Shown here: one piece after another, positions 3,515-58,062 of the stretch | How positions within the stretch are numbered: position 1 is the stretch's first letter | How the letters are laid out: the number at the start of each line of letters is the position of its first letter | Assembly: GCA_003209225.1 (NCBI GenBank) | Contig: QCRZ01000004.1 | Coordinates: forward strand, 1 to 58,926 | Origin: Pelagibacteraceae bacterium AG-464-B04 | Lineage (GTDB): Bacteria; Pseudomonadota; Alphaproteobacteria; Pelagibacterales; Pelagibacteraceae | DNA length: 58,926 bases | Reading direction: 5' to 3' | Notes under the pieces: generated by a model | Told to the model about the DNA's origin: nothing | The model's database searches: none | Seen by the model: the letters and a program-made list of their open reading frames with translations, nothing else | Position numbers and translations under genes: made by a program

Positions 3515-3591
3515 AAATAAATTAAATCACAAAAATTATGATTTGTTAATTACTTTATTTTATTTAATTCTTCCCTGATTATACAATTTTT

Positions 3592-3918: not shown

Positions 3919-3970
3919 TACAGAAAATTATTAAATTAAGAAAAATTTAATATCTTTAATGATTAAATTT

Positions 3971-5191: not shown

Positions 5192-5352
5192 TTTCTCCTT
5201 TGATCCATTAAATATATATTCATTATAAATAATTAAGTATTAATTTCAATAAAACAAAGCCGTTATCATATTTATAAATTTTCACTTTCTGATTGAAAAA
5301 CAAAACTCTTAAATAATTAGAGAGTAATAGAAAAAACATTTATATAAGGATA

Positions 5353-5574: not shown

Positions 5575-5652
5575 CAACAACTGGTACGACATTTGATTGT
5601 TAACCAACCACCTCGAAACTAGAGGTAAAACTGAGATAAAAATTTATCCCTT

Positions 5653-6900: not shown

Positions 6901-6901
6901 T

Positions 6902-8054: not shown

Positions 8055-8096
8055 GAAACAAATTATAAATGTTAAAGAAAATACAATAAAGTTCAA

Positions 8097-9013: not shown

Positions 9014-9014
9014 C

Positions 9015-9851: not shown

Positions 9852-9858
9852 ATTAATT

Positions 9859-11517: not shown

Positions 11518-11524
11518 GGGAAAA

Positions 11525-17576: not shown

Positions 17577-18167
17577 ATGAATATTAAGACCCTAAAAAAA
17601 AATGATTTTTCATACGCAGATACTTTAGCCAGTTTGCATGCCAAGAACATTAATGGAAAACTATCAAATATAGGGGTTGAATTTTTATCAAAAATTTATC
17701 AAACATTTTTGCAAGACAAAAACATCAGAATATGGATTTTAGTTCATAAAAAAAAAGCTATAGGTTTTCTATGTGGATGTGATAATAATGAAAAAATTTA
17801 CAAAAAATTTTTACTAAAAAACTTTCCTTTTTTAATTTTTCTTTTTTTAAGCAATATATTAAATTTTTTTTTTATAAAAAATATTTACGGTTTAATTATT
17901 TTATTTTTAAATCCTAAAAAAAAAACAATTAATTCTGAACTTCTTTCAATTGCTATTACAAAAAAGTTTCAAAATAAACATTATGGAAAAAGATTAGTAC
18001 GTAAATTGGAACGTTATTTAAAAAAAAAAAATAAAAAAGAATATATTGTAAAAGTTGAATCTAATAACAAAAGAGCAATTAGTTTTTATTTATCAAATAA
18101 ATTTAGATATATATTTAAAACGAGCTATCCTTTATTTGATATAATTAATTTAAAAAAAAAACTATGA
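17577..18167 (+). CDS. GNAT family N-acetyltransferase
   Basis: ITKKFQNKHYGKRLVRKLERYLKKKN...VKVESNNKRAISFYLSNKF, GNAT C-terminal half; unusual hydrophobic insert. Confidence 0.72.
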   Translation: MNIKTLKKNDFSYADTLASLHAKNINGKLSNIGVEFLSKIYQTFLQDKNIRIWILVHKKKAIGFLCGCDNNEKIYKKFLLKNFPFLIFLFLSNILNFFFIKNIYGLIILFLNPKKKTINSELLSIAITKKFQNKHYGKRLVRKLERYLKKKNKKEYIVKVESNNKRAISFYLSNKFRYIFKTSYPLFDIINLKKKL

Positions 18168-20045
18168 TTCACAAGTTTTTTTAAGATTGTTTTTTAAGTA
18201 TAAAATGTAAATGTCACCATTGTATAGTTCGCAATAATCTTTTTCACTTATTGAAATTTTCTCCGTGATGGGTTTTGTTTTTTCCAATATAATAATTTCA
18301 GGCTTTTTAAAATTTATTGTTTGGTTGCTATAAAATTTTGCTCTTAATCTGTCAAATTCTTCCTTAGGTATTGCTATTTGCTGACTCAGTATTGGCGATG
18401 TAGATAAAATAAATTTTTTAATATCTTCTTCAAAATTTTTAGATCCTTTAAAAGTATTTAATGAATTTGCACTATATCTATAATCAAAAAAAGTTCCTAC
18501 ATTAGAGTTAAAATATCTCCATCCTCTTTTTTCATTTTTTAAGAAATTTAAAAGGTCTTCATCATTAAGATTCAAGAATTTAAAATTGTTAATCAAATCA
18601 TTTTCAATCATTTCATTAGTTTTTCCTGTAAACATACCTTTAACTAAGCTCAAATATTTAACATCATTTAAAATTGCCCAAATCATTAATTCATTATCAA
18701 ATGTTAACATTGAAATATTTTCAATAACGATATTTTTATTATTGTTTATTTTTTCTGTAATTTTTTCAAACTCTACTCTCCTTTTTTTATATTTCTGATT
18801 ATTAAATTCATAATTTTTTTCTAAATAAAAATTAAAAAAATAAATAACAATTAACAAAGTGGATAAAATATTAATTAATGGCAATTTTAAATCTTTTTTA
18901 AAATAGTGTTTGATTGATATAATTAAAAAAAATATAAAAAATAAAATTATACAAACAACGACGGCATTGTTAAAATGATAAAGCAATCCTGAATTAGGTG
19001 AGATTATAATAAAAAAAATAGGAGAAAAAATAGATCCTATAAAAATTATTAAAAGGAGATTTAATAATCTGGTACCAGCAAAGTTTTTTTTATTTGAAAC
19101 ATAAATACAAATTACCGACAAAAACAATAAAAGTAAAAATTTTAAGCTAAAATACTTCCCAAAATAATAATTAGCTAATACAATTTTTTTTTCAAAGCTT
19201 AGTTTAAATAATCCTGCACGCATTACAGAATCATTTTCGGTGTATATTATATTTATTACAAAAGGCGAAATAATGATTAAAAAAATTAGTATTGAAAATA
19301 AAATATTTTTGTAATTATTAAATAATTCTTCAATTATCTTTGTTTTAAACTTGTAAATCAAAAATATTAAAAGTGAAAAAAATTCAATTAAAAAAAAATA
19401 ATAAAAACTTGAAAAAGTAAGCCCCAATATTATTGCTAAAAAAATTATTTTTTTTTTTTGTAAATTTTGGTCACAATCCATACTTACGAGCAAGTAAATG
19501 AATGAAAAAAGATATAAATTTGATGGAACTGGTCTATGAGTTCGAAGGAAAAAAAAATTATTGAAAAAAGTTTCTAGATAAATTGTATTAAAGTTTTGTA
19601 AACTTTCCATGTTGTTTATTTCTTTCATCAGGATAGGAATCATAAAAATAAGCAAACTTAAGAACACAGATTCATTTTCATTAAAAAATTTTGAAAAGAT
19701 TTTAAAAAAAATAAGTAGAAAGATAAATATTGCAAAAAATTCTATAATAACTAATCCGATAGAACTAAATATTTTAAAAAATATTGCGTGAAAAATAAGA
19801 GAACCCACAGGAATAGGAACACCTTTTAAATTATTAACATTAGGATCAAATGAATTATAAAAATTTAAAGAAGTTAGGTATTTTATATATGGGTACCAAT
19901 AGTGTCCATCACCTACATTTTCAAAAATAATTCTAACTGATAATTTTTCATCGAAAAAATAGAATGACAGAATCCATTTTGTTGAGAAAAGCAATATTGA
20001 TAAAATTAAAATTTTATTAATATTTTTATTTTTAAATACCATCAT
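18162..20045 (-). CDS. Large polytopic membrane protein of unknown function (possibly glycosyltransferase-like)
   Basis: 627 aa ORF, many hydrophobic stretches, soluble C-terminus; no family motif recognised. Confidence 0.62.
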   Translation of the reverse strand: MMVFKNKNINKILILSILLFSTKWILSFYFFDEKLSVRIIFENVGDGHYWYPYIKYLTSLNFYNSFDPNVNNLKGVPIPVGSLIFHAIFFKIFSSIGLVIIEFFAIFIFLLIFFKIFSKFFNENESVFLSLLIFMIPILMKEINNMESLQNFNTIYLETFFNNFFFLRTHRPVPSNLYLFSFIYLLVSMDCDQNLQKKKIIFLAIILGLTFSSFYYFFLIEFFSLLIFLIYKFKTKIIEELFNNYKNILFSILIFLIIISPFVINIIYTENDSVMRAGLFKLSFEKKIVLANYYFGKYFSLKFLLLLFLSVICIYVSNKKNFAGTRLLNLLLIIFIGSIFSPIFFIIISPNSGLLYHFNNAVVVCIILFFIFFLIISIKHYFKKDLKLPLINILSTLLIVIYFFNFYLEKNYEFNNQKYKKRRVEFEKITEKINNNKNIVIENISMLTFDNELMIWAILNDVKYLSLVKGMFTGKTNEMIENDLINNFKFLNLNDEDLLNFLKNEKRGWRYFNSNVGTFFDYRYSANSLNTFKGSKNFEEDIKKFILSTSPILSQQIAIPKEEFDRLRAKFYSNQTINFKKPEIIILEKTKPITEKISISEKDYCELYNGDIYILYLKNNLKKTCES

Positions 20046-29859: not shown

Positions 29860-30954
29860 TTACCTCACATAATTTTTTTTATAAAACGGAAGTTTAGATA
29901 CTTTGGCTTCATGCTTCTTTCCTCTAACTTCCAAAGAGACCTTTGTTCCAAGTTTAGAAAAATCTAATTTTACATAACCCATAGCAATAGGTCCATTAAC
30001 ACTTGGGCCAAAAGTACCACTTGTAATAGATCCAATTTCTTTACCATCTTCAGAAAAAATCTTAACTCCTTCTCTTGCTATAATTTTTCCTTCAGGTTTA
30101 ATGCCAACTCTCAATCGGCTTAAACTCCCATTTAAATCTGATTTGATTTTGTTGTAACCTACAAATCCACCTTCTTCTCTCCTTCTATTAGATATTGCCC
30201 ATTTAAGATTTGCTTCGATCGGACTTGTAGATTCATTTATATCATGACCATAAAGACACAATCCAGCTTCTAACCTTAAAGTATCTCTGGCTCCTAAACC
30301 GATCGGCTTTACGTCTTGTGATATTAATTCTTTTGCTAAATTTTCTACAAATTCATTTGATATAGAAATTTCAAATCCATCTTCCCCTGTATAGCCTGAT
30401 CTAGTGATATAAACATCTTTGCCATTATAAGAAAATTTATTTCCATTCATAAATTTAAGAGAAGAAATTCCACTAATTATTTTTTCTAATATTTCTGATG
30501 ATTTTGGTCCTTGTAATGCAATAAGAGATAAATTTTTATGTAAAATTATTTTAAATTTATTATTAAGAAAATTATTAATTATTTTAAAATCATTATCTTT
30601 GCATGCGGCATTAAGAATAACATTAAAACCTTTTTCAACTTTAGTTACAATTAAATCATCATAGATTCCACCCTTTTTATTAGTAAGAAAAGAATATTTT
30701 GATTGATTGAGTTTTATTTTCTTAAGATCTATTGGAATAATTTTTTCTAATTCGACAGCTAGATCTGCATTTCCTTCGATTGACAATTGTCCCATATGGG
30801 AAACATCAAACATGCCTGCGCTATTCCTCGTTATTTTATGCTCGTCTACAATTCCTGAAGAATATTGAACAGGCATTTCATATCCTGCAAAGGGAACAAA
30901 CTTTGCCCCAAGACTCTTGTGATATTCATATAAAGCTGTTCTTTGTGTTTCCAT
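29860..30954 (-). CDS. gcvT: Aminomethyltransferase, T-protein
   Basis: [34 protein letters not shown]-type motif, [20 protein letters not shown]. Confidence 0.96.
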
Positions 30955-30969
30955 AATAACTCTTTTTAC

Positions 30970-31116
30970 ACCCCATCTGTCTGTTTACCTGAGAGATTTT
31001 TGCTCCGTCGGTGAGGCCCTAAGCCTGCTTTCCAGAGTTATTATGTACGGTCCTTTTGCCTGAGAGTTTCCGGGGTGGTTGCTCCTTCGGCGCCATTTGA
31101 ATTGGTCTCTCCCGTA
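30970..31116 (-). promoter_or_regulatory. Tandem glycine riboswitch (two aptamers) upstream of gcvT
   Basis: Minus-strand text: TACGGGAGAGACC...GCGCCGAAGGAGCAACC...ACTCTCAGGCAAAAGGACCGTA (aptamer I, P1 TACGG/CCGTA) then ACTCTGGAAAGC...TCACCGACGGAGCAAA...TCTCTCAGGTAAACAGACAGA (aptamer II); ends about 15 nt before the gcvT ATG. Confidence 0.95.
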
Positions 31117-31163
31117 TTAGTTAGAGTTTGTGTCAGAAGTGACTAAATGTCAAATGAATAAAA

Positions 31164-43885: not shown

Positions 43886-44770
43886 CTAACGTCTAATTCC
43901 TCTTAATCTTTCTGAACGCCTTCTTAATAATTCAACTGTGGTCAATAAAAATATAGATAAAATTACAAGACATGTTGCCATGCAAAGTATTACTGGGCTA
44001 ATTTCCTGCCTTATACCAGCCCACATTTGACGAGGGATAGTTACTTGTTCAACACTTCCTAAAAATAAAACAACCACAACTTCATCAAATGAGGTAATAA
44101 AAGCAAACAGTGCGCCTGAAATCACTCCAGGAAGAATAAGTGGCATAATTACTTTGAAAAATGTTCTTATCTGATCACCTCCCAAACTTTGTGATGCACG
44201 TATAAGATTGGTATCAAAACCAGTTAATGTAGCTGTAACTGTAATAACAACAAAAGGTGTCCCAAGAGCAGTATGAGCTAGTATCAATCCAGTATAAGTA
44301 CCTATTAAACCCATTTTGGCGTAAAAGAAAAATACCCCTGCAGCTGTAATAATCAAAGGAACGATCATGGGCGAAATTAAGAGAGCCATTATTGCACCTT
44401 TGAAAGGCATATGCGGTCTACTTAAACCTAAAGCTGCTACCGTTCCTAATGTTGTTGCAAGAATGGTTGCTGATATACCAATGATAAAACTATTAACTGT
44501 ACCTAACATCCATTTGTTTGTGCATACTGTGGTAATAATTGCATCTTCTCTACATATGCCGAGCATTTGCTCGTACCACCTAAGAGAAAATGCATCAGGA
44601 TCTAGTCTTAACATTCCTTCTGTAAAACCAAAAAAAGGTGACTGATTAAAAGACAAAGGAACAATAATAAAGATAGGAGCAATAAGAAAAAAAAATACCA
44701 TCGCGCAGTAAGCCAGGAAACCATAGTATCCAATTTTTTGTCCAGTAGTTGTATATGTCGGTAAAGCCAT
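43886..44770 (-). CDS. ABC transporter permease, PotC-like
   Basis: 294 aa, 6 TM, EAA-type motif ASQSLGGDQIRTFFKVIMPLILPG. Confidence 0.92.
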   Translation of the reverse strand: MALPTYTTTGQKIGYYGFLAYCAMVFFFLIAPIFIIVPLSFNQSPFFGFTEGMLRLDPDAFSLRWYEQMLGICREDAIITTVCTNKWMLGTVNSFIIGISATILATTLGTVAALGLSRPHMPFKGAIMALLISPMIVPLIITAAGVFFFYAKMGLIGTYTGLILAHTALGTPFVVITVTATLTGFDTNLIRASQSLGGDQIRTFFKVIMPLILPGVISGALFAFITSFDEVVVVLFLGSVEQVTIPRQMWAGIRQEISPVILCMATCLVILSIFLLTTVELLRRRSERLRGIRR

Positions 44771-44775
44771 AATAA

Positions 44776-46029
44776 TTATCCCAGTTTTATATTTTCAATA
44801 CCCACTACTTTGTTATAAACCCAGTAAAGAACTAGCATCACCACAAGTAAAATGCCTCCTAGTGCTGAACATAATCCCCAATTTAAAGATGTTTTTAGAT
44901 GGTAAGCAATCCAATGACCAATTAATTGCCCATCTTTTCCTCCAACTAAAGCTGGAGTAATAAAATATCCAATGGCAAGAACAAAAACAAGTAAGCCACC
45001 AGCACTAATTCCTGGAACTGATTGAGGAAAATAAACTCTATAAAAAGCGTGCATTGGTTTTGCTCCCAAATTTAATGCTGCTCGCATGTAAGTAGGTGGA
45101 ATTGTTTTCATGACACTATACAAAGGCAGTACCATAAAAGGCAATAAAATTTGGGTCATTGCAATTAATGTTCCTGTTTGATTATAGATTAATTGCATAC
45201 GATTTTCGTCAGCAATCACTCCTCCCCAAACTAAAATACTATTAAAAATACCTTTCTGCATTAATATTACTATCCATGAAACTGTCCGAACCAATAACGA
45301 AGTCCAAAAAGGTAAAAGAACAAAAATCATGAGAAGATTGCTTAATTTTAATGGCAAAGTAGCTAAGAGGTATGCAACAGGATAGCCCAAAAGTAGAGTA
45401 AATAAAGTTACAAGAACGCTAACTTTAAGAGTTTTAATCCAAGTTGAATTATATACTCTTCTGTTTTCTGGTTGTTGTATAACATTTTTATCTGAATCAT
45501 ATTTTAAATCCACCGCATTTAAATAATAACCAAATGTAATGGGATCAACCATTTCCCCTAAGGCTTTCCAAAATTCAATTTGCCCCCACCGTTTATCAGC
45601 TTTAATCATTTGTTCTTTATAGGGACCTTCTTTTATTTTTTTAAATTTTCTTTTTGATTTCTTAAGTAAACTTTTCCATCCTGATTTACTATAATTCATA
45701 CGTGTACTAGCTTTACCGATTTGTAATTTTTCAGCGCTTAAAATTTCATGAAACATAGAAGCATAAAGTTCTTCTGGTGGAAGATCTTTTCGATCCCATT
45801 GTTTATAAACTTCAAAGGTTTTTGGAAACACTGTATTGATTTGTTTGTCATCAACACTTCTTAACAACATACTAAGAATAGGGAATGCAAATGTGATAAT
45901 AATAAATAATGCTAAAGGAAGCACTAGAGCAAATGCCCTAATCTTATTTAAACGTTCAGCACGTTTAAGACTGATTTTTAAGGGTATACCATCAGTAGTT
46001 AATATTTCACTTTTTGCTGACTGATTCAT
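44776..46029 (-). CDS. ABC transporter permease, PotB-like, with a long periplasmic insertion
   Basis: 417 aa; ALNLGAKPMHAFYRVYFPQSVPG EAA motif; soluble insert of more than 100 aa after TM1. Confidence 0.91.
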   Translation of the reverse strand: MNQSAKSEILTTDGIPLKISLKRAERLNKIRAFALVLPLALFIIITFAFPILSMLLRSVDDKQINTVFPKTFEVYKQWDRKDLPPEELYASMFHEILSAEKLQIGKASTRMNYSKSGWKSLLKKSKRKFKKIKEGPYKEQMIKADKRWGQIEFWKALGEMVDPITFGYYLNAVDLKYDSDKNVIQQPENRRVYNSTWIKTLKVSVLVTLFTLLLGYPVAYLLATLPLKLSNLLMIFVLLPFWTSLLVRTVSWIVILMQKGIFNSILVWGGVIADENRMQLIYNQTGTLIAMTQILLPFMVLPLYSVMKTIPPTYMRAALNLGAKPMHAFYRVYFPQSVPGISAGGLLVFVLAIGYFITPALVGGKDGQLIGHWIAYHLKTSLNWGLCSALGGILLVVMLVLYWVYNKVVGIENIKLG

Positions 46030-46040
46030 ATGACCATTAT

Positions 46041-46075
46041 AAAAAAAGGCGAGATAAAAATCTCGCCTTTTTTTT
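46041..46075 (-). terminator. Rho-independent-type hairpin between substrate-binding protein and permease genes
   Basis: AAAAAAAGGCGAGAT-AAAA-ATCTCGCCTTTTTTTT, near-perfect stem with A/T tails. Confidence 0.85.
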
Positions 46076-46093
46076 AATTAGATTTACTTAGAC

Positions 46094-47197
46094 TTATTTA
46101 CCCATCCAAGCTGAAAATCTTTCACCAATTTCTGTACCATTATCAGCCCAAAAAGCTGGGTTAGCAAAAACTGATCTTTTCACCTTTTTCTTCGTATTAG
46201 GCATATGCTCTAATACATTAACACCTGTATGGAACCAAGGCTCGTTTTTCTTGATAATATCAAGACCACAAGTTCTTAGTGGACCATATGTAATATATTT
46301 TGCTTGTTCAGCTTGTGCTTCGCAAGTTGTAGCGTGCTTTAAAAACTCAATAGCTTCGTCCTTATTTGGCGAACCTTTAACAATAGCTACCCAGTCACCT
46401 TCAAGAACTTGCCCTTCCCAAATATAATCGAAGTTAGCTCCTTCTGAAAGTTTAGCAGCTCCAACACGACCATTGTAAGCAATAGACATAACTACTTCAC
46501 CACTTTTTACTAATTCTAGTGGCTGAGCTCCTGCTGACCAAAATACAACATCATCTTTGATTGTATCTAATTTTGCAAATGCTCTGTCTATTCCTTCTGG
46601 AGTTTCCAATACATCATAAACTTTATTTGCTTTAACACCGTCAGCAACTAATGCCATTTCTAGATTAGCGCTTGCCCATGTGTGTATACCTCTTTTTCCA
46701 GGAAACTTTTTAGTATCATAAAAATCTTTGATTCTTTTAGGTTTCTTTCCTGGGAAAGCTGAAGGATCAAAAAATACAACATATGTCCACCAAATTTGTG
46801 GTGCTGCACATGCTGATATTGGTCCACTGCTTCCAGTACCGTTTTCAGGTATACTATCTACATAACTTACACCGCCAGGTGCTTCAGGAAATGTACTCCA
46901 GTCTAATTCTTCGAATAAACCTTCGTCACATCCAGCTATTGCATCTGATGGTAGGATATCTACGACATCCCATATTACGTTGCCCGATTCTACTTGAGCT
47001 CTGACTTCACCGAGACCACCGTTGTAGTTTTCAACGCTAATACCGTTTTTTCTATCATCCCAAGTATCAATGTAACCTTTTTGCTGACTCATTGTGTATG
47101 CTCCACCCCATGAAACGAAAGTAAAGTCAGCATAAGCTGTAGCAGCAAATGCAAGTCCTAACGCTCCGAGGAAAGCAGATTTTATTAACTTAAACAT
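46094..47197 (-). CDS. ABC transporter substrate-binding protein, PotD/PotF-like
   Basis: Signal peptide, FTFVSWGGAYTMSQQKGYID, WDVVDILPSDAIAGCDEGLFEELDW. Confidence 0.92.
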   Translation of the reverse strand: MFKLIKSAFLGALGLAFAATAYADFTFVSWGGAYTMSQQKGYIDTWDDRKNGISVENYNGGLGEVRAQVESGNVIWDVVDILPSDAIAGCDEGLFEELDWSTFPEAPGGVSYVDSIPENGTGSSGPISACAAPQIWWTYVVFFDPSAFPGKKPKRIKDFYDTKKFPGKRGIHTWASANLEMALVADGVKANKVYDVLETPEGIDRAFAKLDTIKDDVVFWSAGAQPLELVKSGEVVMSIAYNGRVGAAKLSEGANFDYIWEGQVLEGDWVAIVKGSPNKDEAIEFLKHATTCEAQAEQAKYITYGPLRTCGLDIIKKNEPWFHTGVNVLEHMPNTKKKVKRSVFANPAFWADNGTEIGERFSAWMGK

Positions 47198-47279
47198 ATA
47201 TTTCCCTCTTAATTTAATTAAATTAACGTATATATATGCTTAGATTTAAGCATAAATACAAAAGTACTTCAATGTTAGA

Positions 47280-48365
47280 TTATCTAGCGTCTAAAGCCCT
47301 TGAATCATTTGCCTTCCAAGCAAGTTTAACTTTTACTCCTTCTTGAAATTCTGCACCTTTATAAGTATTTGGGACCTTCACTATAAACTGGTCAATACCA
47401 CAAACTTCAACTCTTGTACGTATATGATCACCTAAGTAAATTAATTCCTTTATTTTTGCTTCAAATATATTTTCAAAATTATTGTTAGTCGGATTTATTT
47501 CGACACGTTCTGGGCGTAATGAAATAGTTGTATCATCACCTTCTGAATCAATATTTACTTTGAGTGCTTTTATTATTTCTCCAGTATCTGTTTTAACAAC
47601 ACAATTTTTTCCATTGATAGATTGAACCTTTCCTCTGATTTGATTATTTTCACCAATAAACTGAGCAACAAAAGAGTTTTCAGGTTTTTCGTATAATATA
47701 TCTGGGGTGGATAACTGTTGAACATATCCATCATTAAATACTGCTATACGATTAGACATTGTCAAAGCTTCACTTTGGTCATGAGTGACGTACACAACTG
47801 TAATTCCAATTTTTTCATGAATATGTTTAATTTCATATTGCATTTGCTCTCTAAGTTTTTTGTCTAATGCTCCTAAAGGTTCATCCATTAAAACAAGTCT
47901 TGGCTCAAAAACTAATGCCCTAGCTAAAGCCACGCGTTGTTGTTGACCACCAGATAATTGTAGTGGCATACGATTACCAAAATCACCAAGTTCAACCATT
48001 GACAGAGCTTTTGAAACTTTATCTTTAATATCTGATTTTTTTAATTTTCTAACTTCAAGAGGAAAAGCAAGATTTTCATTTACAGTCATATGAGGAAATA
48101 ATGCATAATTTTGAAACACCATTCCTATTCCTCTTTTATATGGAGGAATGCTTTTTATGGCTTCTCCATCTAAATATATTTCACCATTTGTTGGTGTTTC
48201 AAAACCAGCAAGCATCATCAGCGTGGTTGTTTTTCCAGATCCTGATGGACCTAACAATGTTAAAAATTCTCCTTGGGGTATATCTAAGTTAAGATTTTTT
48301 ACAACTAAGACTTCACCATCATAACTTTTGTCTACTTTTTCAAACTTTACAAAACTGTCAGACAT
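47280..48365 (-). CDS. ABC transporter ATP-binding protein, PotA-like
   Basis: GPSGSGKTTTLMMLAGFE Walker A, LSGGQQQRVALARAL signature, LVLMDEPLGALD Walker B, TOBE domain. Confidence 0.95.
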   Translation of the reverse strand: MSDSFVKFEKVDKSYDGEVLVVKNLNLDIPQGEFLTLLGPSGSGKTTTLMMLAGFETPTNGEIYLDGEAIKSIPPYKRGIGMVFQNYALFPHMTVNENLAFPLEVRKLKKSDIKDKVSKALSMVELGDFGNRMPLQLSGGQQQRVALARALVFEPRLVLMDEPLGALDKKLREQMQYEIKHIHEKIGITVVYVTHDQSEALTMSNRIAVFNDGYVQQLSTPDILYEKPENSFVAQFIGENNQIRGKVQSINGKNCVVKTDTGEIIKALKVNIDSEGDDTTISLRPERVEINPTNNNFENIFEAKIKELIYLGDHIRTRVEVCGIDQFIVKVPNTYKGAEFQEGVKVKLAWKANDSRALDAR

Positions 48366-48415
48366 AAGATTATAAAAACATTTGTGGTTATCTATTACAA
48401 GGAAAAATTACTTTT

Positions 48416-49582
48416 TTATTTTATATGCAATTCTCTCGTAAATTTGCAAAAGGTCTCTGAACTTTTTTCAGTAACTCTTACAGATTCACTTGCTTCTACA
48501 CCCCAATCACCAAATTGCATTACTGCTATCATATGAAAAGTGACATTTGGTTGTAAAATAGTTTTATCTCCTTTTGATATGTTTAAAGTATGTTCGCCCC
48601 AATCAGGAGGATAGCCAATACCAACGGAATAACCAGTTCTAGATTCTTTTTTAATATTATATTTATCTAAAACCCCCCAAAATTTTTGAGCCACATCATC
48701 AGCTGTATTGCCAGGTCTGGTGGCTGCAATTCCTGCATCTAGCGCTTCATTTGTAGCTTTCATTGCATCTATTTTTTTTTGTTCAGCTTTACCTAATAAA
48801 ACGGTTCTAGCCATAGGTACGTGGTATCTTTTATACACACCAGACAATTCAATAATTGTTGCTTCTCCCTTAATAAATTTTTCTTCTGTCCAAGTTAAGT
48901 GTGATGATGAAGTGCCTTTTCCAGTAGGCAATAAAGGTACTATACTAGAATAGTCCCCACCAAATTCTGGTGTGCCCCTTATTAATGATCTTTGAATTTC
49001 CGCAACAGCATCGCATTGTCTAGCTCCTTCTTTTACATTTTCAAATGCTGTTTTCATTGCTTTTTCAGTTATTCTTGAAGCTGTCCTCATTAATTCGATT
49101 TCTGTATCAGACTTAACAAATCTTACCCAATTTACTAATCGTTTTGAGTCTTTTAGTTTCGCATCTGGCAGTCCTGCTTTTATTTTTTCATAACAAAATG
49201 CTGTAAAATAATGACTATCCATTTCAAGGCCAATATTTTGCTTATCCCATTTTCTTAGTTTTATTTCTTCAACAAGATAGTCAAAAGGATGGGAAGGCCA
49301 TGCATGAATATACTTTTCATTGTACACAATAATATTTTTATGTTGTAAGTAAGTTTTTATATAACCACCTCCAGCATCTTGTGCTCTAAGAAAACAAATT
49401 GGCTCATCTTCATCAATATGAATTAGAACACATTGAGCATAATAAAAAGACCACGCATCGTACCCAGTTAAATAATTCATATTTCCTGGGTCTTGTGAAA
49501 TCATTAAATCAATACCTTTTTTTTGCATTGAATCTTTAACTTTTATTAATCTTTCTTTGTATTCTGTTTTTGTAAAAATCAT
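48416..49582 (-). CDS. M24-family hydrolase, ectoine-hydrolase (DoeA/EutD)-like
   Basis: DPGNMNYLTGYDAWSFYYAQC, GARQCDAVAEIQRSLIRGTPEFGGDYSSIVPLLPTG, SRTGYSVGIGYPPDWGEHT. Confidence 0.82.
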   Translation of the reverse strand: MIFTKTEYKERLIKVKDSMQKKGIDLMISQDPGNMNYLTGYDAWSFYYAQCVLIHIDEDEPICFLRAQDAGGGYIKTYLQHKNIIVYNEKYIHAWPSHPFDYLVEEIKLRKWDKQNIGLEMDSHYFTAFCYEKIKAGLPDAKLKDSKRLVNWVRFVKSDTEIELMRTASRITEKAMKTAFENVKEGARQCDAVAEIQRSLIRGTPEFGGDYSSIVPLLPTGKGTSSSHLTWTEEKFIKGEATIIELSGVYKRYHVPMARTVLLGKAEQKKIDAMKATNEALDAGIAATRPGNTADDVAQKFWGVLDKYNIKKESRTGYSVGIGYPPDWGEHTLNISKGDKTILQPNVTFHMIAVMQFGDWGVEASESVRVTEKSSETFCKFTRELHIK

Positions 49583-49597
49583 TTTTTTAAAATTAAC

Positions 49598-50404
49598 TTA
49601 CATTTTTATTTTTTTACTGTCTTCTAAATAAGGAAGTCTATTTCTAACTTTTTGAATTAAATTTAAATCAATTTCCCCGATAATTAATTCTTCTTTATCG
49701 TTAGCAGCAACAATATCTAAGCCTTTTGGATCTATAATTTTGCTTTCACCCATAAAATTAATATTATTATTTGTTCCACAATAATTTGCATAAATAACAA
49801 AAATACCATTTTCAAATGCTCTGCTTCTTGAAATATATCTTGCCGCTGCAGGCCATTCGTTTGATTGTCCAGTTGGAGCAATTATTACATTTGTTTTGTT
49901 TTTAGCTGACGCTCTAATGATTTCCGGAAATTCTAATTCATAGCAAATAACCAACGCGATATTCATATCATTTATTTGAAACGAAGAATTTTTTTGTCCA
50001 GGGCTAAAAAGTTCAATTTCATAACCTGTTCTCGGCAAAATAGTTTTTCTATGATTCGCAACAAATTTTCCATCTTTATTAAAACATTGAGCAGAATTAA
50101 ATAACTTATTTGAATTTAATTCAGGGTATCCATAAATTATTGATGTTTTAAATTTAATTGCTAGTTGAGAAATTGATTTTGAAAATTGCCCATCCATTTT
50201 TTCAGCATATTTTTTAATATCATCTGGATTTCCATATCCTGATATAAAAAGTTCAGGACACACTATGAAATCAATCTTCTGATTAGCTTTTCTTATAGCT
50301 TGTTCTAATCGCTCAATACGATCTGTTGGAGATTCTTGTCTACTCCTGTATTGAAATATTCCTGCTTTATATAGTGGAAAGATTGTATTTCCTGAATTCG
50401 ACAT
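49598..50404 (-). CDS. Carbon-nitrogen hydrolase (nitrilase superfamily)
   Basis: VCPELFISGYG, NHRKTILP, LVICYELEFPEIIRASA: the Glu-Lys-Cys triad. Confidence 0.92.
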   Translation of the reverse strand: MSNSGNTIFPLYKAGIFQYRSRQESPTDRIERLEQAIRKANQKIDFIVCPELFISGYGNPDDIKKYAEKMDGQFSKSISQLAIKFKTSIIYGYPELNSNKLFNSAQCFNKDGKFVANHRKTILPRTGYEIELFSPGQKNSSFQINDMNIALVICYELEFPEIIRASAKNKTNVIIAPTGQSNEWPAAARYISRSRAFENGIFVIYANYCGTNNNINFMGESKIIDPKGLDIVAANDKEELIIGEIDLNLIQKVRNRLPYLEDSKKIKM

Positions 50405-50412
50405 TGACTTTT

Positions 50413-51588
50413 CTATTTAATAATTGCTTCTTCAACAGAATTAGGAAAAAAAGTTATAGGTTCGTACCCATCATCAGTAATAACAACGCTATCACCAACT
50501 TGAGCTCTAAAATCTTTTGCATATGTACATCCGTCAACTGAAAATACCATTCCAGATTTTAAAACTGTCTTATCTCCAACAACTAACTCTGGTTTTTCAA
50601 GAAAACTAAAACCTGTTCCTCTGCCACATCTAAATCTAGGGTAATCATAACCTGCCAACTGAATAACTTCTGCGTACGCAGCGTGAACATCTTCTGCCAC
50701 AACGCCTGCTCGAAGTAATTTAAGTGCAGCCGCTTGGCTATCAATACATACTTGATAAGCTTTTTCTTGTGATTTTTCTAAAATTTCCGCAACCCAAAAT
50801 GTTCTGTCAAAACCAAGTTTAAAACGGTGAAAATTATTCATACCACAAAAGCATAAAAATACAGGGTCACCATGTTTTATTATTTTTGTTGAAGCACGAT
50901 GATGAGTCAACAAAGTATCTTTTCCTGAAGCCATAATTTGCAAAAAATGAATTAATGGTGACATTCGTGTCCCTTTATAATTTTTTTCAAGTATTTTTGA
51001 AGATTTTTTTGTTCCAGCTCTAGAAATAGCTAAAGCTACTTCATACTCAGGCACCCCTGCTTTAATAGTTTCACGACCGGCTGTCATCATTGCTAATCCA
51101 ACTTCTCCAGTATATCTAGCCAATTTAAGTTCTTCTTCAGATTTAATCATACGCATACCTGAAGTAATTGGTGTAACATCTATAATTTTATCCTGGCTTA
51201 CTAAGGTATTCAAATAATTGCGCACAATTGCTGCAATATGATTCATTTCGATTGCTAAACTATTTATGTTTTTTAAAATTTTTGGAATAATTTCACGCCA
51301 TTCATTGCCTACTCCATCATTCCATGGCTCAATATGATCAACCATGCCTTCATCTTCTATTAAGCCTGCATCTACACTTGGTGTTATGAGTATAGTTTTA
51401 TCTTCTTTAGGAACTACTAATATTGTTGGACGACCAAATTCCATATGAAGATAATCGTAATACCCAGTATAATAATAAACATTATCATCATCTGTGATCA
51501 TTGCTAAATCAATATTTGATTCTTTTAACTTTGATCTTAAGGTGTTAATTCTATTTTTAAAAATTTTGTTACTTGAGTTTTGCTTCAT
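50413..51588 (-). CDS. M24-family Xaa-Pro peptidase/creatinase-like protein
   Basis: DDDNVYYYTGYYDYLHMEFGRPT, MASGKDTLLTHHRAS, FRCGRGTGFSFLEKPELV. Confidence 0.82.
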   Translation of the reverse strand: MKQNSSNKIFKNRINTLRSKLKESNIDLAMITDDDNVYYYTGYYDYLHMEFGRPTILVVPKEDKTILITPSVDAGLIEDEGMVDHIEPWNDGVGNEWREIIPKILKNINSLAIEMNHIAAIVRNYLNTLVSQDKIIDVTPITSGMRMIKSEEELKLARYTGEVGLAMMTAGRETIKAGVPEYEVALAISRAGTKKSSKILEKNYKGTRMSPLIHFLQIMASGKDTLLTHHRASTKIIKHGDPVFLCFCGMNNFHRFKLGFDRTFWVAEILEKSQEKAYQVCIDSQAAALKLLRAGVVAEDVHAAYAEVIQLAGYDYPRFRCGRGTGFSFLEKPELVVGDKTVLKSGMVFSVDGCTYAKDFRAQVGDSVVITDDGYEPITFFPNSVEEAIIK

Positions 51589-52335
51589 TTAATTGCTATT
51601 AAATAATTTTCCATATCCTTTTATAGAATTATTTTTACCAATTGACTCTAATGTATCCCAAATTAAAGCTTGATTACTAGACAAAACAATTTTGTTTATC
51701 TTTTTTTCAAGTTTATCAATAATTGATAATGTGGGCAATGCAGTACAAGAAACAAAAAGTGCATCGCAATCTTTTAAATCCATATTTGAAAGAACTTCAA
51801 ACAAATAGTCTTGCTTAACTTTTCCAATATCCAAATCATTAGAAATATCAAAGTAAGAATTTGAAGTAACTTCAAAATTTTCTTTTCTAAAAAATTCAAC
51901 TACATCATTATTTAAATCTTTAATATAGGGCGTAAAAACTGAAATTTTTTTTATTTTTAGTTTTTTTAAAGCTTTAATGGCTGCTGTGCTAGGGGTTATT
52001 ACTTTTGCTTCTGGCTTAACTTGTTTAATTTTCGTTTTTACAGAATTATATCCTGCCGCTATAGTCCCCGATGTACAGGCATAAACTACACAATCTATTT
52101 TTTGATCGGGAAGAATATCTTTAGCGACTTCAGTAATCTCTTCGGACATTTTAAGTAAATTTTCATTTGTTAAAGGATTATAACAATGTATTCGATTAAC
52201 AAAAAGATCTATATCTTTATCCTTTATCACATTCGTAAAATCTTTTTCGATGATGAAATCACTTGCTAAAGCTATCAAGCCAACTCTTGGATTCTGGCTT
52301 TCTTCAAATTTAGGATTTATTTTCTTTGATTCCAT
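51589..52335 (-). CDS. Asp/Glu racemase superfamily protein (maleate isomerase / EutA-like)
   Basis: VGLIALASDFIIEKDF, CVVYACTSGTIAAGY, KISVFTPYIKDLNNDVVEFF, CDALFVSCTALPTLSIID. Confidence 0.82.
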   Translation of the reverse strand: MESKKINPKFEESQNPRVGLIALASDFIIEKDFTNVIKDKDIDLFVNRIHCYNPLTNENLLKMSEEITEVAKDILPDQKIDCVVYACTSGTIAAGYNSVKTKIKQVKPEAKVITPSTAAIKALKKLKIKKISVFTPYIKDLNNDVVEFFRKENFEVTSNSYFDISNDLDIGKVKQDYLFEVLSNMDLKDCDALFVSCTALPTLSIIDKLEKKINKIVLSSNQALIWDTLESIGKNNSIKGYGKLFNSN

Positions 52336-52482
52336 AATTAAAATTATAAACGTTAATTAAATATATATTGATAATTTAGTCTAGTTAAATTAACATACCA
52401 TTATAAGCGATACATAACTCGTCATAAATTACTATGAAAGTGGGATCGATCGTCTTTAAAATTTATTTTAAAGGAGATGCTG
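52336..52482. promoter_or_regulatory. Divergent promoter region between the two catabolic arms
   Basis: Only noncoding gap between head-to-head gene sets; AT-rich; AAGGAG SD at 52471-52476 for the plus-strand gene. Confidence 0.6.
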
Positions 52483-53652
52483 ATGAAGATTGGATATTTT
52501 TGTAATACCACTAATTGGACTAAAAAGCCCTATACCAAGATCTTAGATGAAGCTAGGGACATAGCTATTTATTGTGACAAAAATAATTGGGATTCAATTT
52601 GGTTTACCGAACATCATTTCAGTCACGAAGGAATGGAATCATGTGCAAATCCATTAATAATGGGTACAGATATTGCTGCCAGAACTAACAAAATAAGAAT
52701 AGGTCAAGCTTGCAATGTAATTACATTCTGGAATCCCATTAGACTCGCTGAAGATATTGCCACTCTTGATAATCTTTCTAACGGAAGAGTAGAGGTTGGA
52801 GTTGGCAGAGGAATTTATGGTCGAGAGGCACTTCATTTAAATATAGAAGCTGATGTTAAAGACCAGGGAAAAAATAAAAGATTATTTGAAGAAACTTTAA
52901 CAATACTAAAAAAAGCTTGGACAGAAAAATTTTTTGAACATAAGGGTGAATTTTACACATATCCTTCTCCTGATTTCATTTGGCAACATGATATGAGCCC
53001 GCCAAGCGAAGAATTTGTAGATTTAAAAACTAATAAATTAAAAAAAATTAGTGTTATACCTCAACCTTATCAAAAACCTCATCCGCCAATATGGCAAGTA
53101 GTGGACTCTCCCGGTTCAATTGAAAGAGCAGCTAAGCTTGGCATTAACTGTATAATGTGGATACCAACAGTTAAAGTATTAAAAGAAAGATTTGAAATTT
53201 ATAAAAATGCTAAATCAGAATCTGAAAAAAGAGATGTTCCAATGGGAGAAGGAATTTGTTTGGTCCGAGATTTATTTATAGCTGATAGCATGGAAGAAGC
53301 AAAAGAACTTGCTGGAGAACAAATGGTTAATTATATGCGTTGGGTATGTCATTGGCGAGGCTTAGGTAGCCACATGAATCCAGGTGAAGAACTTCCAAAA
53401 ACAAAAAATAAACTTGATTTATTATCATATGATTTCCTTCATAAACGCAATATGCTTTTCGGAACAGTTGAATATGTCATTGAAAAAATAGAAGAGTTAA
53501 AATCTGAATTAAATCTTCAAAATTTACAAGTGTGGTCAAACTTTCCAGGAGTTAAACACGAAGATTGTATGCGGAGTATTAAATTATTTACAGAAAAAGT
53601 TATGCCTCATTTTAAAAATAAATTAAATACAGAAGTTAAAAAAGTATCTTGA
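52483..53652 (+). CDS. LLM class flavin-dependent oxidoreductase
   Basis: FTEHHFSHEGMESCANPLIMGTDIAARTNKIRIGQACNVITFWNPIRLAEDIATLDNLSNGRVEVGVGRG; start set by the SD. Confidence 0.92.
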   Translation: MKIGYFCNTTNWTKKPYTKILDEARDIAIYCDKNNWDSIWFTEHHFSHEGMESCANPLIMGTDIAARTNKIRIGQACNVITFWNPIRLAEDIATLDNLSNGRVEVGVGRGIYGREALHLNIEADVKDQGKNKRLFEETLTILKKAWTEKFFEHKGEFYTYPSPDFIWQHDMSPPSEEFVDLKTNKLKKISVIPQPYQKPHPPIWQVVDSPGSIERAAKLGINCIMWIPTVKVLKERFEIYKNAKSESEKRDVPMGEGICLVRDLFIADSMEEAKELAGEQMVNYMRWVCHWRGLGSHMNPGEELPKTKNKLDLLSYDFLHKRNMLFGTVEYVIEKIEELKSELNLQNLQVWSNFPGVKHEDCMRSIKLFTEKVMPHFKNKLNTEVKKVS

Positions 53653-55358
53653 AAAGTTCGCTAAAAGAAAAAAATAGTCAAAAAATAACTGGTGGGCAAG
53701 CTGCTGTCCAAGCACTAAAAAAAGAAAAAACAAAACATATTTTTGGTTTAATCGGTTCTGCTACTATGGAAATATTCGATGCGCTCTACCAAGAAAAAAC
53801 AATTAATTTTATTGGCGTTAGAGATGAAAGAACAGGAGCTCACATGGCTGATGGATATGCACGAGCTTCTAATAAACCGGGAGTTATACTTGCTGGTCAA
53901 AACGGGCCAGGTGCAACAAACCTAGTAACAGGAATAGCTCAAGCGTCTGCTGCTTTTTCGCCTGTTGTTTCAATAGCAGGATCTTTTTCAACGAAAGATA
54001 AAGTTCAGGATGCTTTTCAAGGTGTTGATCAACAATCTTTATTTAAGACAATAACTAAAAAAACTTGGACAGTTACAGAAACAAAAAAAATACCTAAAAT
54101 ATTTAGTAAAGCATTTAAATTAGCAATGTCTCCGAGAAGAGGACCAGTTCAAATAAATTTACCAAGAAATATTTTGTCTAAGTCAGCTAAATTTAATATT
54201 AATCAAAAAGAAAAATCATACGAAACTGATAATTTTTTTGAAGGAAAAAAAAAAGATATTAAAAGAGCGATTAAAATCATTATTCAAGCAACTAAGCCAA
54301 TTATTATTGTTGGGGGAGGAATTAAGTATAAAGGTAATTATAAAGAGGTAATTAAACTTGCTGAATTAATAAATTCACCAATAATCACTGCGGCAGGACA
54401 TGGTGATGCTATTCCATTTGATTATAAATTAAATGCAGGTCAAATGGGCCCCCGGGGAAATCCGGTCGCTTCAAAACTTGCAAAAGAAGCTGATGTTATT
54501 ATAGCTCTTGGAACGCGTCTTGGATTTAATTCAACTTTCTACTCATATGAAAATTTAAATAGAAAAGCTAAAATTATTCAAGTCGAATTAGAACCAAAAA
54601 TGATAGGAAGATATTTTCCTGTTAAGGTTGGAATTTGTGCAGACGCATCGATGGTAGCAAAACAAATAAGCAAAGAAATTAAAAATAAAAAATTACATTC
54701 GGAAATCGATAATTGGACAAAACAGTATATAAATGAAAAAAAAGCATATTTAATAAAAAGAGATCAAACGCTAGATAAATTTCCTATCCAACCTACTAGT
54801 CTATTTAAACAACTTAGAAAAGTACTTCCAAAAAATTCAGCGATTACTCTTGATGCTGGTACTTTGTGTCTTCAAGCTACCGATGCTCTTGAATATTATG
54901 ATCCACCTTCTTTATTTACTCCTCTCGATTTTGGTTTGGTAGGTTTTTCGTTTGCGTGTGGCCTAGGTGTAAAAATGGCACGTCCAAACAAAACTGTTGT
55001 CAGTTTAATGGGTGATGGAGGTTTTGGTATGACTATTTCTGAATTGAGCACCGCTGTAGACTACAATATTAATACCATTACTATAGTAATGAATAACAAA
55101 AGTTGGGGCGCAGAAAAAGCTTATCAGAAAGACTTTTTTGGAAAACGTTATATAGGAGCTGACATAAGCAGTCCTCCTTTTGATAAAGTTGCCGAACTCT
55201 ATGGCGCAAAGGGTTTTAAAGTTGAACGCATTTCAGAAATAAATGAAGTGGTAAAAGCTGCTTTGGAAACTAACAAACCTTCAGTCATAGATGTTGCGGT
55301 AGATCCTAAAGCACTATACAGTTTTAGAAGAGACAGTTTTAAGCACAGGTCAAAATAA
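53649..55358 (+). CDS. Thiamine-diphosphate-dependent enzyme, acetolactate synthase/sulfoacetaldehyde acetyltransferase-like (TTG start)
   Basis: FGLIGSATMEIFDAL, DGYARASNKPGVILAGQNGPGATNLV, GDGGFGMTISELSTAVDYNINTITIVMNNKSWGAEKAYQKDFFGKR. Confidence 0.9.
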   Translation: MKSSLKEKNSQKITGGQAAVQALKKEKTKHIFGLIGSATMEIFDALYQEKTINFIGVRDERTGAHMADGYARASNKPGVILAGQNGPGATNLVTGIAQASAAFSPVVSIAGSFSTKDKVQDAFQGVDQQSLFKTITKKTWTVTETKKIPKIFSKAFKLAMSPRRGPVQINLPRNILSKSAKFNINQKEKSYETDNFFEGKKKDIKRAIKIIIQATKPIIIVGGGIKYKGNYKEVIKLAELINSPIITAAGHGDAIPFDYKLNAGQMGPRGNPVASKLAKEADVIIALGTRLGFNSTFYSYENLNRKAKIIQVELEPKMIGRYFPVKVGICADASMVAKQISKEIKNKKLHSEIDNWTKQYINEKKAYLIKRDQTLDKFPIQPTSLFKQLRKVLPKNSAITLDAGTLCLQATDALEYYDPPSLFTPLDFGLVGFSFACGLGVKMARPNKTVVSLMGDGGFGMTISELSTAVDYNINTITIVMNNKSWGAEKAYQKDFFGKRYIGADISSPPFDKVAELYGAKGFKVERISEINEVVKAALETNKPSVIDVAVDPKALYSFRRDSFKHRSK

Positions 55359-55946
55359 ATGGAATTAAATTTACGAAAACTTACAAAATTTGTTGATAAA
55401 ACTTTTATTGAAGGCGGTAAAAAAGCTAAAGAACCTGTTCTCTTAGTTTCTGTTGCGGCTGTTATAAAAAATCCTTGGGTTGGAGAATTTATAGAAGATT
55501 TAAAACCAGCTATTTTTGAATTAGCTCCAAAGCTGGGGGATATTTTGGTACCTGAATTAATTAAAGAAATAGGTTCAGGAGAAAAAATTCTTGCTTACGG
55601 AAAAGCTGCGGTCGTTGGTTTAAAAGGTGAAATTGAACATGCTTCTGCATTTATTCATACTTTAAGATTTGGAAATAAATTTAGAGATGCAGTTGGAGGA
55701 ACTTCTTATTTAAGTTTTACGAATATTAGAGGTCCTGCTGGATGTAAGGTTTCTATTCCCATGATGCACAAAACAGATAGTGGGTTAAGACCATATTATT
55801 TAACCCATGAATTTAATATTAATGATGCGCCATGTGATGATGAAATTATAATTGCTATTGGAGGATCACCAGGTGGAAGGGCTCATGCAAGAACTGGAGA
55901 TCGTTACCAAGATATGAAAGAAATGGGCATAAAAAATACAAAGTAA
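55359..55946 (+). CDS. DUF1185 'amino acid synthesis' family protein
   Basis: VVGLKGEIEHASAFIHTLRFGNKFRDAVGGTSYLSFTNIRGPAGCKVSIPMMHK, GGSPGGRAHARTGDRYQDMKEMG. Confidence 0.85.
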   Translation: MELNLRKLTKFVDKTFIEGGKKAKEPVLLVSVAAVIKNPWVGEFIEDLKPAIFELAPKLGDILVPELIKEIGSGEKILAYGKAAVVGLKGEIEHASAFIHTLRFGNKFRDAVGGTSYLSFTNIRGPAGCKVSIPMMHKTDSGLRPYYLTHEFNINDAPCDDEIIIAIGGSPGGRAHARTGDRYQDMKEMGIKNTK

Positions 55947-55953
55947 ATAAAGT

Positions 55954-56748
55954 ATGCCAAAGACTTCAGATGCTTTTAAAACCTTCTATAAATTTAATAA
56001 AGTTAATGATAAAAATGTTATTGTATTCATACATGGCGTTGGTCTAACCAATGAAATGTGGAATTATCAACTCGATTTTTTTAAAGATGATTACAGTGTA
56101 CTTACTTATGACTTATTAGGTCATGGAGAAACACCTATAAAAAAAACTAAATTCAACTTTGATCAATATTCTAAACAATTATTAAATTTAATTAATGAGT
56201 TAAACTTAAATAAAATTCACCTAGTTGGATTTTCACTGGGAGCTCTTATCGCTAGAGATTTTGCTTCTAAACACTCCGATAGATTGTCCTCATTGATAAT
56301 TCATGCGTCCATATACAAAAGATCTGAAGAACAGAAAAGAGTAGTGATAAATAGATTTAATATAGCTAAAATGGACAAGCCTGCTTCCAAAAAACAAGCT
56401 TTAAGACGATGGTTTAATGAAGATTTTATAAAAAAAAATCCAGAAACTTATAAAAAAATATATTTAAATTTAGAAACAAATAATTTAAAAAATTTTTTAA
56501 AGTCCTATGAACTTTTTGTTAACTATCAGGATGATGATAAAATATTAAAAACAATTGACGCTAATACCCTAATAACTACTGGTGAAAATGATGTGGGCTC
56601 TACCCCTGAAATGGCTAGTAATTTAAGCAAGAAAATTAAAAATAGTAATTTTATAACAATAAAAAAGGGTAAACATCTTTGTAGTATAGAATGTTCTAAC
56701 GATGTTAATATAACTTTTAAAAAGTTTATTGATAAAAATAATGACTAA
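55954..56748 (+). CDS. Alpha/beta hydrolase
   Basis: IVFIHGVGLTNEMW-type oxyanion loop, LVGFSLGALIARDFA nucleophile elbow (GFSLG), KKGKHLCSIEC catalytic His. Confidence 0.9.
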   Translation: MPKTSDAFKTFYKFNKVNDKNVIVFIHGVGLTNEMWNYQLDFFKDDYSVLTYDLLGHGETPIKKTKFNFDQYSKQLLNLINELNLNKIHLVGFSLGALIARDFASKHSDRLSSLIIHASIYKRSEEQKRVVINRFNIAKMDKPASKKQALRRWFNEDFIKKNPETYKKIYLNLETNNLKNFLKSYELFVNYQDDDKILKTIDANTLITTGENDVGSTPEMASNLSKKIKNSNFITIKKGKHLCSIECSNDVNITFKKFIDKNND

Positions 56749-57937
56749 ATTTAAAGAATATAAAATGTTTATAGATGGTCAATGGGTTGACTCGGAAAGC
56801 AAAAAAACTTTTGAAACTCTAAATCCTGAAAATAACGAACCATGGGCAATAGTTCCTGAGGCTAGTACCAAAGATGTGGATAACGCAGTTCGAGCAGCAC
56901 AAAAAGCTTTTGAAGGAGAGTGGCCAAAACTATTTCCAAAAGTAAGAGCTAAATATCTAAGAGCTATTGCTATCCAGTTAAGAGAAAATGCTGAACTTTT
57001 AGGAAAAATTGAAACAATAGATACAGGTAAACTTTTTAAAGAAACAAAAGCGCAAGCAAATTATATAGCTGAATATTATGATTATTATGCTGGTCTTGCT
57101 GACAAAGTTGAAGGAACTGTTTTACCAATAGATAAACCGGATATGCAAGTTATAACAACAAGAATACCTATAGGCGTTATTGCAGCAATTATTCCTTGGA
57201 ATTCCCAAATGCTTTTAACAGCTGTAAAAATTGCTCCTGCCTTAGCTATGGGAAATACAGTTGTGGTTAAATCATCAGAGTTAGCACCAGCTACGTTATT
57301 TGAATTTGCAAAACTAATTGAAAAAACAGGAATACCAAAAGGAGTTGTGAATGTAATTAGTGGATTTGGAGATCCGTGTGGTAAAGAATTAACTAGACAT
57401 CCATTTGTTGAAAAAATTGCTTTCACTGGAGGACCGGAAACAGCAAAACATATAATAAAAAATTCTGCTGAAAATTTATCTCAAGTAAGTTTAGAGCTAG
57501 GAGGAAAAAGTCCAGTTGCGGTTTTTGAAGATGCAGACCAAGAAAATGCTCTAAATGGAATAACGGCGGGAATTTTTGGTGCAAGTGGGCAAAGTTGTAT
57601 AGCTGGATCCAGATTATATATACAAAAAAAAATTTATGATAATTTTTTAAATAAATTAATTGAACGTGCAAAAAAAATAAAGCTAGGCAGTCCAATAGAT
57701 CCTAACACACAAATGGGTCCGATAAGTAATTTTAAACAACTTGAAATAATAGAAAAAACAATAAAACTTACCATTGAACAAGGAGGTAAGTTAAGGTGTG
57801 GTGGAAAAAGACATGCTCTTTCAAATAAAGGTTATTATTTTCCAGCTACAATAATTGAATGTAAAAATCATAATCTTCCAACTGCTGAAAATGAACTTTT
57901 TGGCCCTATATTATCAGTAATGGTTTGGTTTATATAA
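56741..57937 (+). CDS. Aldehyde dehydrogenase, C-terminally truncated
   Basis: IIPWNSQMLLTAVKIAPALAMGNTVVVKSSE, VSLELGGKSPVAVFEDAD, GASGQSCIAGSRLY (catalytic Cys); stops as ELFGPILSVMVWFI*, before the usual final ALDH segments. Confidence 0.88.
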   Translation: MTKFKEYKMFIDGQWVDSESKKTFETLNPENNEPWAIVPEASTKDVDNAVRAAQKAFEGEWPKLFPKVRAKYLRAIAIQLRENAELLGKIETIDTGKLFKETKAQANYIAEYYDYYAGLADKVEGTVLPIDKPDMQVITTRIPIGVIAAIIPWNSQMLLTAVKIAPALAMGNTVVVKSSELAPATLFEFAKLIEKTGIPKGVVNVISGFGDPCGKELTRHPFVEKIAFTGGPETAKHIIKNSAENLSQVSLELGGKSPVAVFEDADQENALNGITAGIFGASGQSCIAGSRLYIQKKIYDNFLNKLIERAKKIKLGSPIDPNTQMGPISNFKQLEIIEKTIKLTIEQGGKLRCGGKRHALSNKGYYFPATIIECKNHNLPTAENELFGPILSVMVWFI

Positions 57938-58062
57938 AATTAGGAGAATATGAAAAAGCTATTAAAAGTTATAAAGAAGCACAAAGAGTATATCCTTTTA
58001 TAAAATCTTCAGAGAGGATGATACCACAGCTTAAGGAACTAATAAAAAAAGAAGCTATTTAA
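57922..58062 (+). pseudogene. 3' remnant of a TPR-protein gene fused in another frame to the truncated ALDH
   Basis: Frame reads GLVYIKLGEYEKAIKSYKEAQRVYPFIKSSERMIPQLKELIKKEAI*; TPR consensus with no upstream start in frame. Confidence 0.75.

Follow-up and report, generated by a model that had tools for sequence, protein, structure and literature searches.

Two apparently separable catabolic gene modules, one with ectoine-hydrolase-like and Pot-type transporter genes and one with a luciferase-like monooxygenase, stand back to back in a SAR11 genome

The Tgn route of Acinetobacter baylyi comprises a flavin reductase with a luciferase-like monooxygenase (LLM), an aldehyde dehydrogenase (ALDH), an alpha/beta hydrolase and a succinate-semialdehyde dehydrogenase (SSADH). 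Its TgnB component is an oxygenase of the LLM or luciferase family (PMC11354265). Trigonelline is used by wild-type Sinorhizobium meliloti and not by a strain cured of pSymA (PMC4207669), and mapping placed trigonelline genes in the symbiotic region of pSym, according to the title of Goldmann 1991 as cited in PMC12489286. Ectoine and hydroxyectoine are catabolised through eutABCDE/doeAB in Ruegeria pomeroyi and other bacteria (PMC13188858), and the SAR11 potABCD genes were assigned to five polyamines, with the authors stating that transporter specificity is still to be validated (Noell and Giovannoni 2021, PMC8437039). Here we describe a divergent locus of 13 genes (positions 43886-57937) in the window, by which we mean the whole stretch of 58,926 nucleotides that was analysed (contig QCRZ01000004.1 of Pelagibacteraceae bacterium AG-464-B04), and propose as its best explanation, with reasonable confidence, two known-style pathways lying side by side and not one new pathway.

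The window is an entire contig of a SAR11 (Pelagibacterales) bin of 966,640 bases that is 63% complete (G000), and its content of guanine plus cytosine (GC, ~30%) is consistent with SAR11. The named genomes nearest to it belong to uncultured Pelagibacteraceae. Presence counts were taken from 247 Pelagibacterales genomes, and gene order from 80 SAR11 loci of named genomes, supplemented with the LLM surroundings in 14 relatives. All 13 genes were confirmed at the coordinates and on the strands given by a first-pass annotation, and profile matches bore out their families. The gene that it called Asp/Glu racemase-like kept its family and was refined to EutA-like, having the cysteine pair that marks the two-cysteine racemase/maleate-isomerase type and is invariant in the family. 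The locus reads as follows, with ThDP standing for thiamine diphosphate:

43886-44770, minus strand: PotC-type permease (BPD_transp_1; syntenic in relatives)
44776-46029, minus strand: PotB-type permease (BPD_transp_1; syntenic in relatives)
46094-47197, minus strand: PotD-like solute-binding protein (SBP_bac_8)
47280-48365, minus strand: PotA-type ATPase (TIGR01187, 382 bits, exceeding the cut-off of 355.6)
48416-49582, minus strand: DoeA/EutD-like ectoine-type hydrolase (TIGR02993, 469 bits, below the cut-off of 613)
49598-50404, minus strand: nitrilase-type C-N hydrolase, between DoeA and EutA in this bin (CN_hydrolase, 183 bits)
50413-51588, minus strand: M24b, a divergent creatinase-fold hydrolase, an insert in this bin (M24 and Creatinase_N)
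51589-52335, minus strand: EutA-like member of the racemase family, heading the left arm (TIGR02990, 209 bits, cut-off 318)
52336-52482, no strand: divergent intergenic gap of 147 bp (from the sequence)
52477-53652 (start possibly 52483), plus strand: LLM flavin monooxygenase, candidate ring-opening enzyme (Bac_luciferase, 146 bits)
53649-55358, plus strand: Xsc/ALS-like ThDP enzyme, optional member (three TPP_enzyme domains; Xsc model 422 bits, cut-off 620)
55359-55946, plus strand: DUF1185/AA_synth protein (PF06684, 212 bits)
55954-56748, plus strand: alpha/beta hydrolase, PcaD/RutD-like (Abhydrolase_1)
56729-57937, plus strand: aldehyde dehydrogenase, 3'-truncated (Aldedh, 425 bits)

The left arm is an established operon of SAR11 genomes. 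A DoeA-like protein is encoded in 190/247 genomes and an EutA-like protein in 187/247, the two genes mostly lying a few bases apart in the window's family, and the potA-D-B-C order of the window is identical to that of the operon in relatives. The LLM of the right arm was found in 82/247 genomes, so that at least 108 carry the left arm alone; in genomes without the right arm EutA-DoeA-PotA-PotD-PotB-PotC is intact, mostly followed by FadB and PpiA, with EutA beside LivK (L171) or one gene away from it (L168). As an operon the right arm is both conserved and portable, and it constitutes flexible-island cargo. Its order LLM-(ThDP)-DUF1185-hydrolase-ALDH recurs across two families of the order in the 14 relatives. 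Of the 80 SAR11 loci, 59 have it complete including ThDP and another 7 have all of it but ThDP, the remainder mostly being cut by a contig end. Wherever LLM and DoeA could be placed on the same contig they are divergent (49/49 genomes), at a distance of 0.9-53 kb and of 0.9-5 kb in 16 cases. The marker genes of the two arms are on separate contigs in sister-family genomes, where right arms occur without an adjoining left arm. The co-occurrence of the arms is not due to chance, because dozens of genomes show the same gene order; the right arm is inserted at one flank of the fixed left-arm locus, and its insertion at one chromosomal site explains the two-armed appearance and the fixed divergent orientation. 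We are therefore highly confident that the arms are two separable catabolic modules, back to back: their recurrence as neighbours, as anticipated by the first-pass annotation, was observed, while its proposal of a single pathway was not upheld.

The LivK/LivMHFG genes follow the ALDH in most loci, yet genomes that lack this arm have them as well, and they were assigned to the core site rather than to the operon. Class-wide LLM matches below ~350 bits mostly lacked a DUF1185 or ALDH neighbour, and plasmid-borne LLM matches in Peribacillus and Sulfitobacter were discarded as relatives, the surrounding clusters being unrelated. A second SAR11 pair of LLM and alpha/beta hydrolase genes lies beside carnitine-type genes in the same island (L098, L105, L109 and similar loci). 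The 147-bp gap between the arms has the limits given previously if the LLM starts at ATG 52483; ATG 52477 is an alternative start, and AAAGGAG is found at 52470. A comparable bare gap between EutA and LLM (135-143 bp) was seen in six relatives (L081, L083, L084, L089, L092 and L111), and promoter signals within the 147 bp showed no clear excess over shuffled sequences.

Judged from its sequence, the left arm probably combines uptake with ectoine-type cyclic-amidine hydrolysis. The DoeA-like protein matched the solved DoeA 6twk with 347 bits, its GVYKRYHxPM, GYxxGIxYPPDWGE and DWGxE stretches being near-identical, and the best solved match of the PotD-like protein was 8jv1, described as 'spermidine/putrescine-binding' (254 bits). 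A single stretch of L200, an alphaproteobacterium of 32% GC, carries GATM, EutA, EutB, EutC, a DoeB2-like M20 gene, an M24b homologue, Sox-type genes and DoeA, with EutA and DoeA scoring equal to the copies in the window. We favour ectoine-type chemistry because DoeA and EutA keep this company with EutBC and the DoeB2-like M20 gene in L200, and because DoeA is paired with a DoeB2-like M20 gene in sister-family SAR11 genomes. The PotD-like protein would capture a small cationic or zwitterionic nitrogenous solute for import by PotABC, DoeA would open an ectoine-type cyclic amidine by N-C hydrolysis, and EutA would act on the derived or hydroxylated product. The first-pass annotation had likewise read both arms as catabolic and the left one as ectoine-like, and had noted the absence of EutB and EutC from the locus; indeed, tblastn confined to the window, using the L200 copies for EutB and EutC, found neither of these there, nor a DoeB2-type M20, GATM or rhizobial-type flavin reductase gene.

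There is some chance, though a limited one, that the left arm is a SAR11 polyamine importer, with DoeA and EutA acting on polyamine- or guanidino-derived compounds such as agmatine or creatine and not on ectoines. The published potABCD assignment fits this alternative, as do the fadB and ppiA neighbours, which also flank the operon in relatives, and the creatinase or amidinotransferase-like genes beside EutA in some relatives, which keep a guanidino substrate for the left arm open. It is countered by the validation still due for that transporter specificity (PMC8437039), by the ectoine-hydrolase stretches kept in DoeA, and by the L200 locus, where this DoeA subfamily is placed alongside EutBC and a DoeB2-like gene. 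GATM-like genes, without an NCBIfam match in the two copies scanned, lie beside EutA/DoeA or between EutA and LLM in several distant genomes (L057, L059, L066, L074, L175 and L200), and form a partner that recurs with the ectoine-type module and is unexplained. As the highly expressed SAR11 'polyamine' transporter operon also carries ectoine-hydrolase-like and EutA-like genes in most genomes, its cargo merits re-testing.

Two genes of the left arm were rejected as core members, since none of the 80 SAR11 loci contains M24b or the C-N hydrolase; in this bin they are inserts that would serve as accessory steps, a hydrolase and a nitrilase-type amidase. G000 is the sole carrier of M24b among the 247 genomes (E<=1e-60), and relatives at 56-61% identity occur outside the Pelagibacterales, one of them within the GATM-eutABC-DoeB2-like-doeA locus of L200; in L202 a 38% homologue of the C-N hydrolase adjoins a homologue of M24b. 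The matches of M24b to creatinase and to prolidase are weak and of about equal strength. The protein shares the fold and the aligned histidine with creatinase 1CHM (82 bits, compared with 537 bits for a true SAR11 creatinase), but has D and Q at the positions of the aligned creatinase glutamates, the catalytic residues of that enzyme. A separate creatinase gene, cut by the contig start, is located at 4-1152 on the minus strand, with 66% identity to the creatinase of L069 (537 bits to 1CHM), and a creatinase adjoins EutA in relatives.

For the right arm, a Tgn-like ring-opening route appears rather probable by analogy. The first-pass annotation had taken the whole locus for a candidate undescribed pathway, but a relative of this arm is found in a rhizobial plasmid cluster with the order GntR-DUF1185-hydrolase-flavin reductase-LLM-ALDH-NIPSNAP-Pot-type transporter, ending on an SSADH gene in Rhizobium phaseoli, and related clusters are present in Azospirillum and Paraburkholderia. 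Identity to the rhizobial cluster reaches 57% for DUF1185, 49% for the orthologous ALDH and 31% for the PotD-like protein against the cluster's binding protein. The ALDHs of SAR11, of two other alphaproteobacteria (L137 and L138) and of rhizobia form one clade (support 100/98), with SSADH and other sequences outside. The rhizobial hydrolase, too, adjoins DUF1185 and has the same fold as the SAR11 copy, and in L137 a flavin reductase gene adjoins the LLM gene. In S. meliloti Rm41 the cluster is on pSymA, ~3-14 kb from genes that by eye read as nifB, nifA and fixABC, with nifHDK-like genes, also identified by eye, nearby. Each gene of the Acinetobacter Tgn set has its counterpart in the rhizobial cluster. 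The right arm would thus resemble the trigonelline route in its workings but use a different oxygenase, and it is not classifiable as Tgn, because its LLM belongs to a different clade and a PF01613 protein is absent from five single-contig genomes carrying LLM.

In such a route, the ring of an N-alkyl pyridinium or comparable N-heterocycle would be opened by the LLM, which would draw on O2 and on reduced flavin from another source; the ALDH would oxidise the resulting aldehyde or hemiacetal, and the alpha/beta hydrolase would cleave a formamide or enamide to an amine, formate and a C4 unit. DUF1185 would be a constant member without an assigned role, and the Xsc-like ThDP enzyme, missing from the right arms of G002, G004, G006, G011 and G028, could provide an optional C-C step. 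LLM, ThDP enzyme and DUF1185 are foreign to the ectoine pathway, as had been noted before. Formate is an expected product of a Tgn-like route; elsewhere in the window (2067-14320), molybdopterin synthesis genes accompany a pair formed by a NuoF-like open reading frame (ORF) and a 931-aa ORF, which resembles an NAD-linked formate dehydrogenase, although only the NuoF-like ORF was searched.

As substrate of the right arm, a marine pyridinium betaine is the most likely, either homarine or trigonelline. Homarine is abundant in the sea, which is why we consider it, and SoxB-type genes near the operon in L019 point weakly in the same direction. That the arm is a dedicated SAR11 homarine route, with an LLM clade in which no characterised member was found, no PF01613 partner and an extra Xsc-like ThDP step, is a tentative and rather doubtful proposition; literature searches on 8JV1, trigonelline in SAR11, homarine genes and homarine monooxygenase returned nothing direct. 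The sulfonated substrate suggested initially was rejected, as the ThDP enzyme scores far below the Xsc cut-off and is dispensable, being absent from several otherwise complete right arms, and the locus contains no sulfonate-specific gene.

The ALDH in the window is of the family first proposed, in a truncated copy of 402 aa compared with about 486-497 aa in relatives, the last ~92 aa being missing. The DNA aligns to a congeneric ALDH gene up to ~57922 and is followed by the remnant of a tetratricopeptide repeat (TPR) protein gene, with the short shared word AATGGTTT at the ALDH/TPR join (region 57919-58060). Either a deletion or an assembly join may account for this break, and the right arm may thus be non-functional in this bin, or the assembly chimeric at the ALDH. 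In G035 the LLM is broken into two frames (L028, 5307-6480) and the remaining operon is intact.

Several observations weigh against a reading as two known-style pathways. The DoeA and EutA scores are below the NCBIfam cut-offs, DoeB (TIGR02994) was found in 0/10 genomes, DoeB2 (NF038260) was not found in G000, a bin 63% complete whose ArgE-like M20 neighbour was not checked for this role, and the published assignment of SAR11 PotABCD is to polyamines (PMC8437039). The rhizobial cluster, on position and gene content, is itself only a candidate for the trigonelline genes. The SAR11 LLM and hydrolase are only 26% and 24% identical to the rhizobial copies, and the LLM tree, which did not include TgnB of A. 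baylyi, places SAR11, L137 and L138 in one supported clade and the rhizobia in another. Finally, no PF01613 flavin reductase was found in G000 or in 7/8 near-complete relatives, five of which are single-contig genomes carrying LLM, in a search restricted to this reductase family.

One integrated, undescribed pathway for a single N-containing solute, in which Pot import and hydrolysis by DoeA, M24b and the amidase lead to the LLM, ThDP and ALDH steps, is improbable. The invariable divergence of same-contig pairs, their close spacing in 16 genomes with a short bare gap in several, and the Pot-type transporter that the rhizobial Tgn-like cluster itself contains would suit it, but the left arm occurs so often without the right, sister-family right arms lack an adjoining left arm, and the 0.9-53 kb between the arms hold variable genes, with the orientation explained by insertion at one site. 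Also improbable is a Rut-like right arm acting on a ring of pyrimidine or purine-like type (with LLM in the place of RutA, DUF1185 in that of RutC and the hydrolase in that of RutD), for despite the weak matches of the hydrolase to RutD and PcaD models, the chorismate-mutase-like fold of DUF1185 (PMC2954203) and a uracil/xanthine-type permease after LivK in L057, L059 and L066, the RutA model gave only 19.5 bits for the LLM, few loci have the permease and it lies beyond LivK, and the matches of ALDH and DUF1185 are to the rhizobial Tgn-like cluster instead.

Elsewhere in the window, a glycine riboswitch (31038-31124, minus strand, 67.6 bits) lies ahead of the gcvT gene (29860-30954), and a 627-aa ORF in the stretch of lowest GC (~21%; 18162-20045, minus strand) had no Pfam match. 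This ORF is near a DegT-type aminotransferase gene, possibly in a variable surface-polysaccharide region.

SAR11 rank with the most abundant bacteria of the ocean, and little is known about the fate of the pyridinium betaines that phytoplankton make; if the substrates and reactions that we infer are correct, a five-gene operon in about a third of the sampled SAR11 genomes would supply both a marker and the enzymes for that fate. Compared with the Tgn and rhizobial clusters, the right arm has in common an operon uniting LLM, an ALDH of the rhizobial clade, alpha/beta hydrolase and DUF1185, with a Pot-type transporter nearby, and differs in having an LLM of another clade and no PF01613 reductase found, a ThDP gene added in most SAR11 copies, and neither SSADH nor NIPSNAP in the operon. 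The left arm shares EutA-like and EutD/DoeA-like proteins, with the hydrolase stretches kept, with ectoine and hydroxyectoine catabolism (PMC13188858), whereas it lacks EutB, EutC and DoeB/EutE, scores below the cut-offs, and has a Pot-type transporter where those systems have a TRAP (tripartite ATP-independent periplasmic) or Ehu transporter. With the SAR11 potABCD polyamine locus, whose published description does not mention ectoine (PMC8437039), it shares the type of transporter operon, but the window has ArgE-like, LysE and aconitase genes on the flank where fadB and ppiA stand in that locus.

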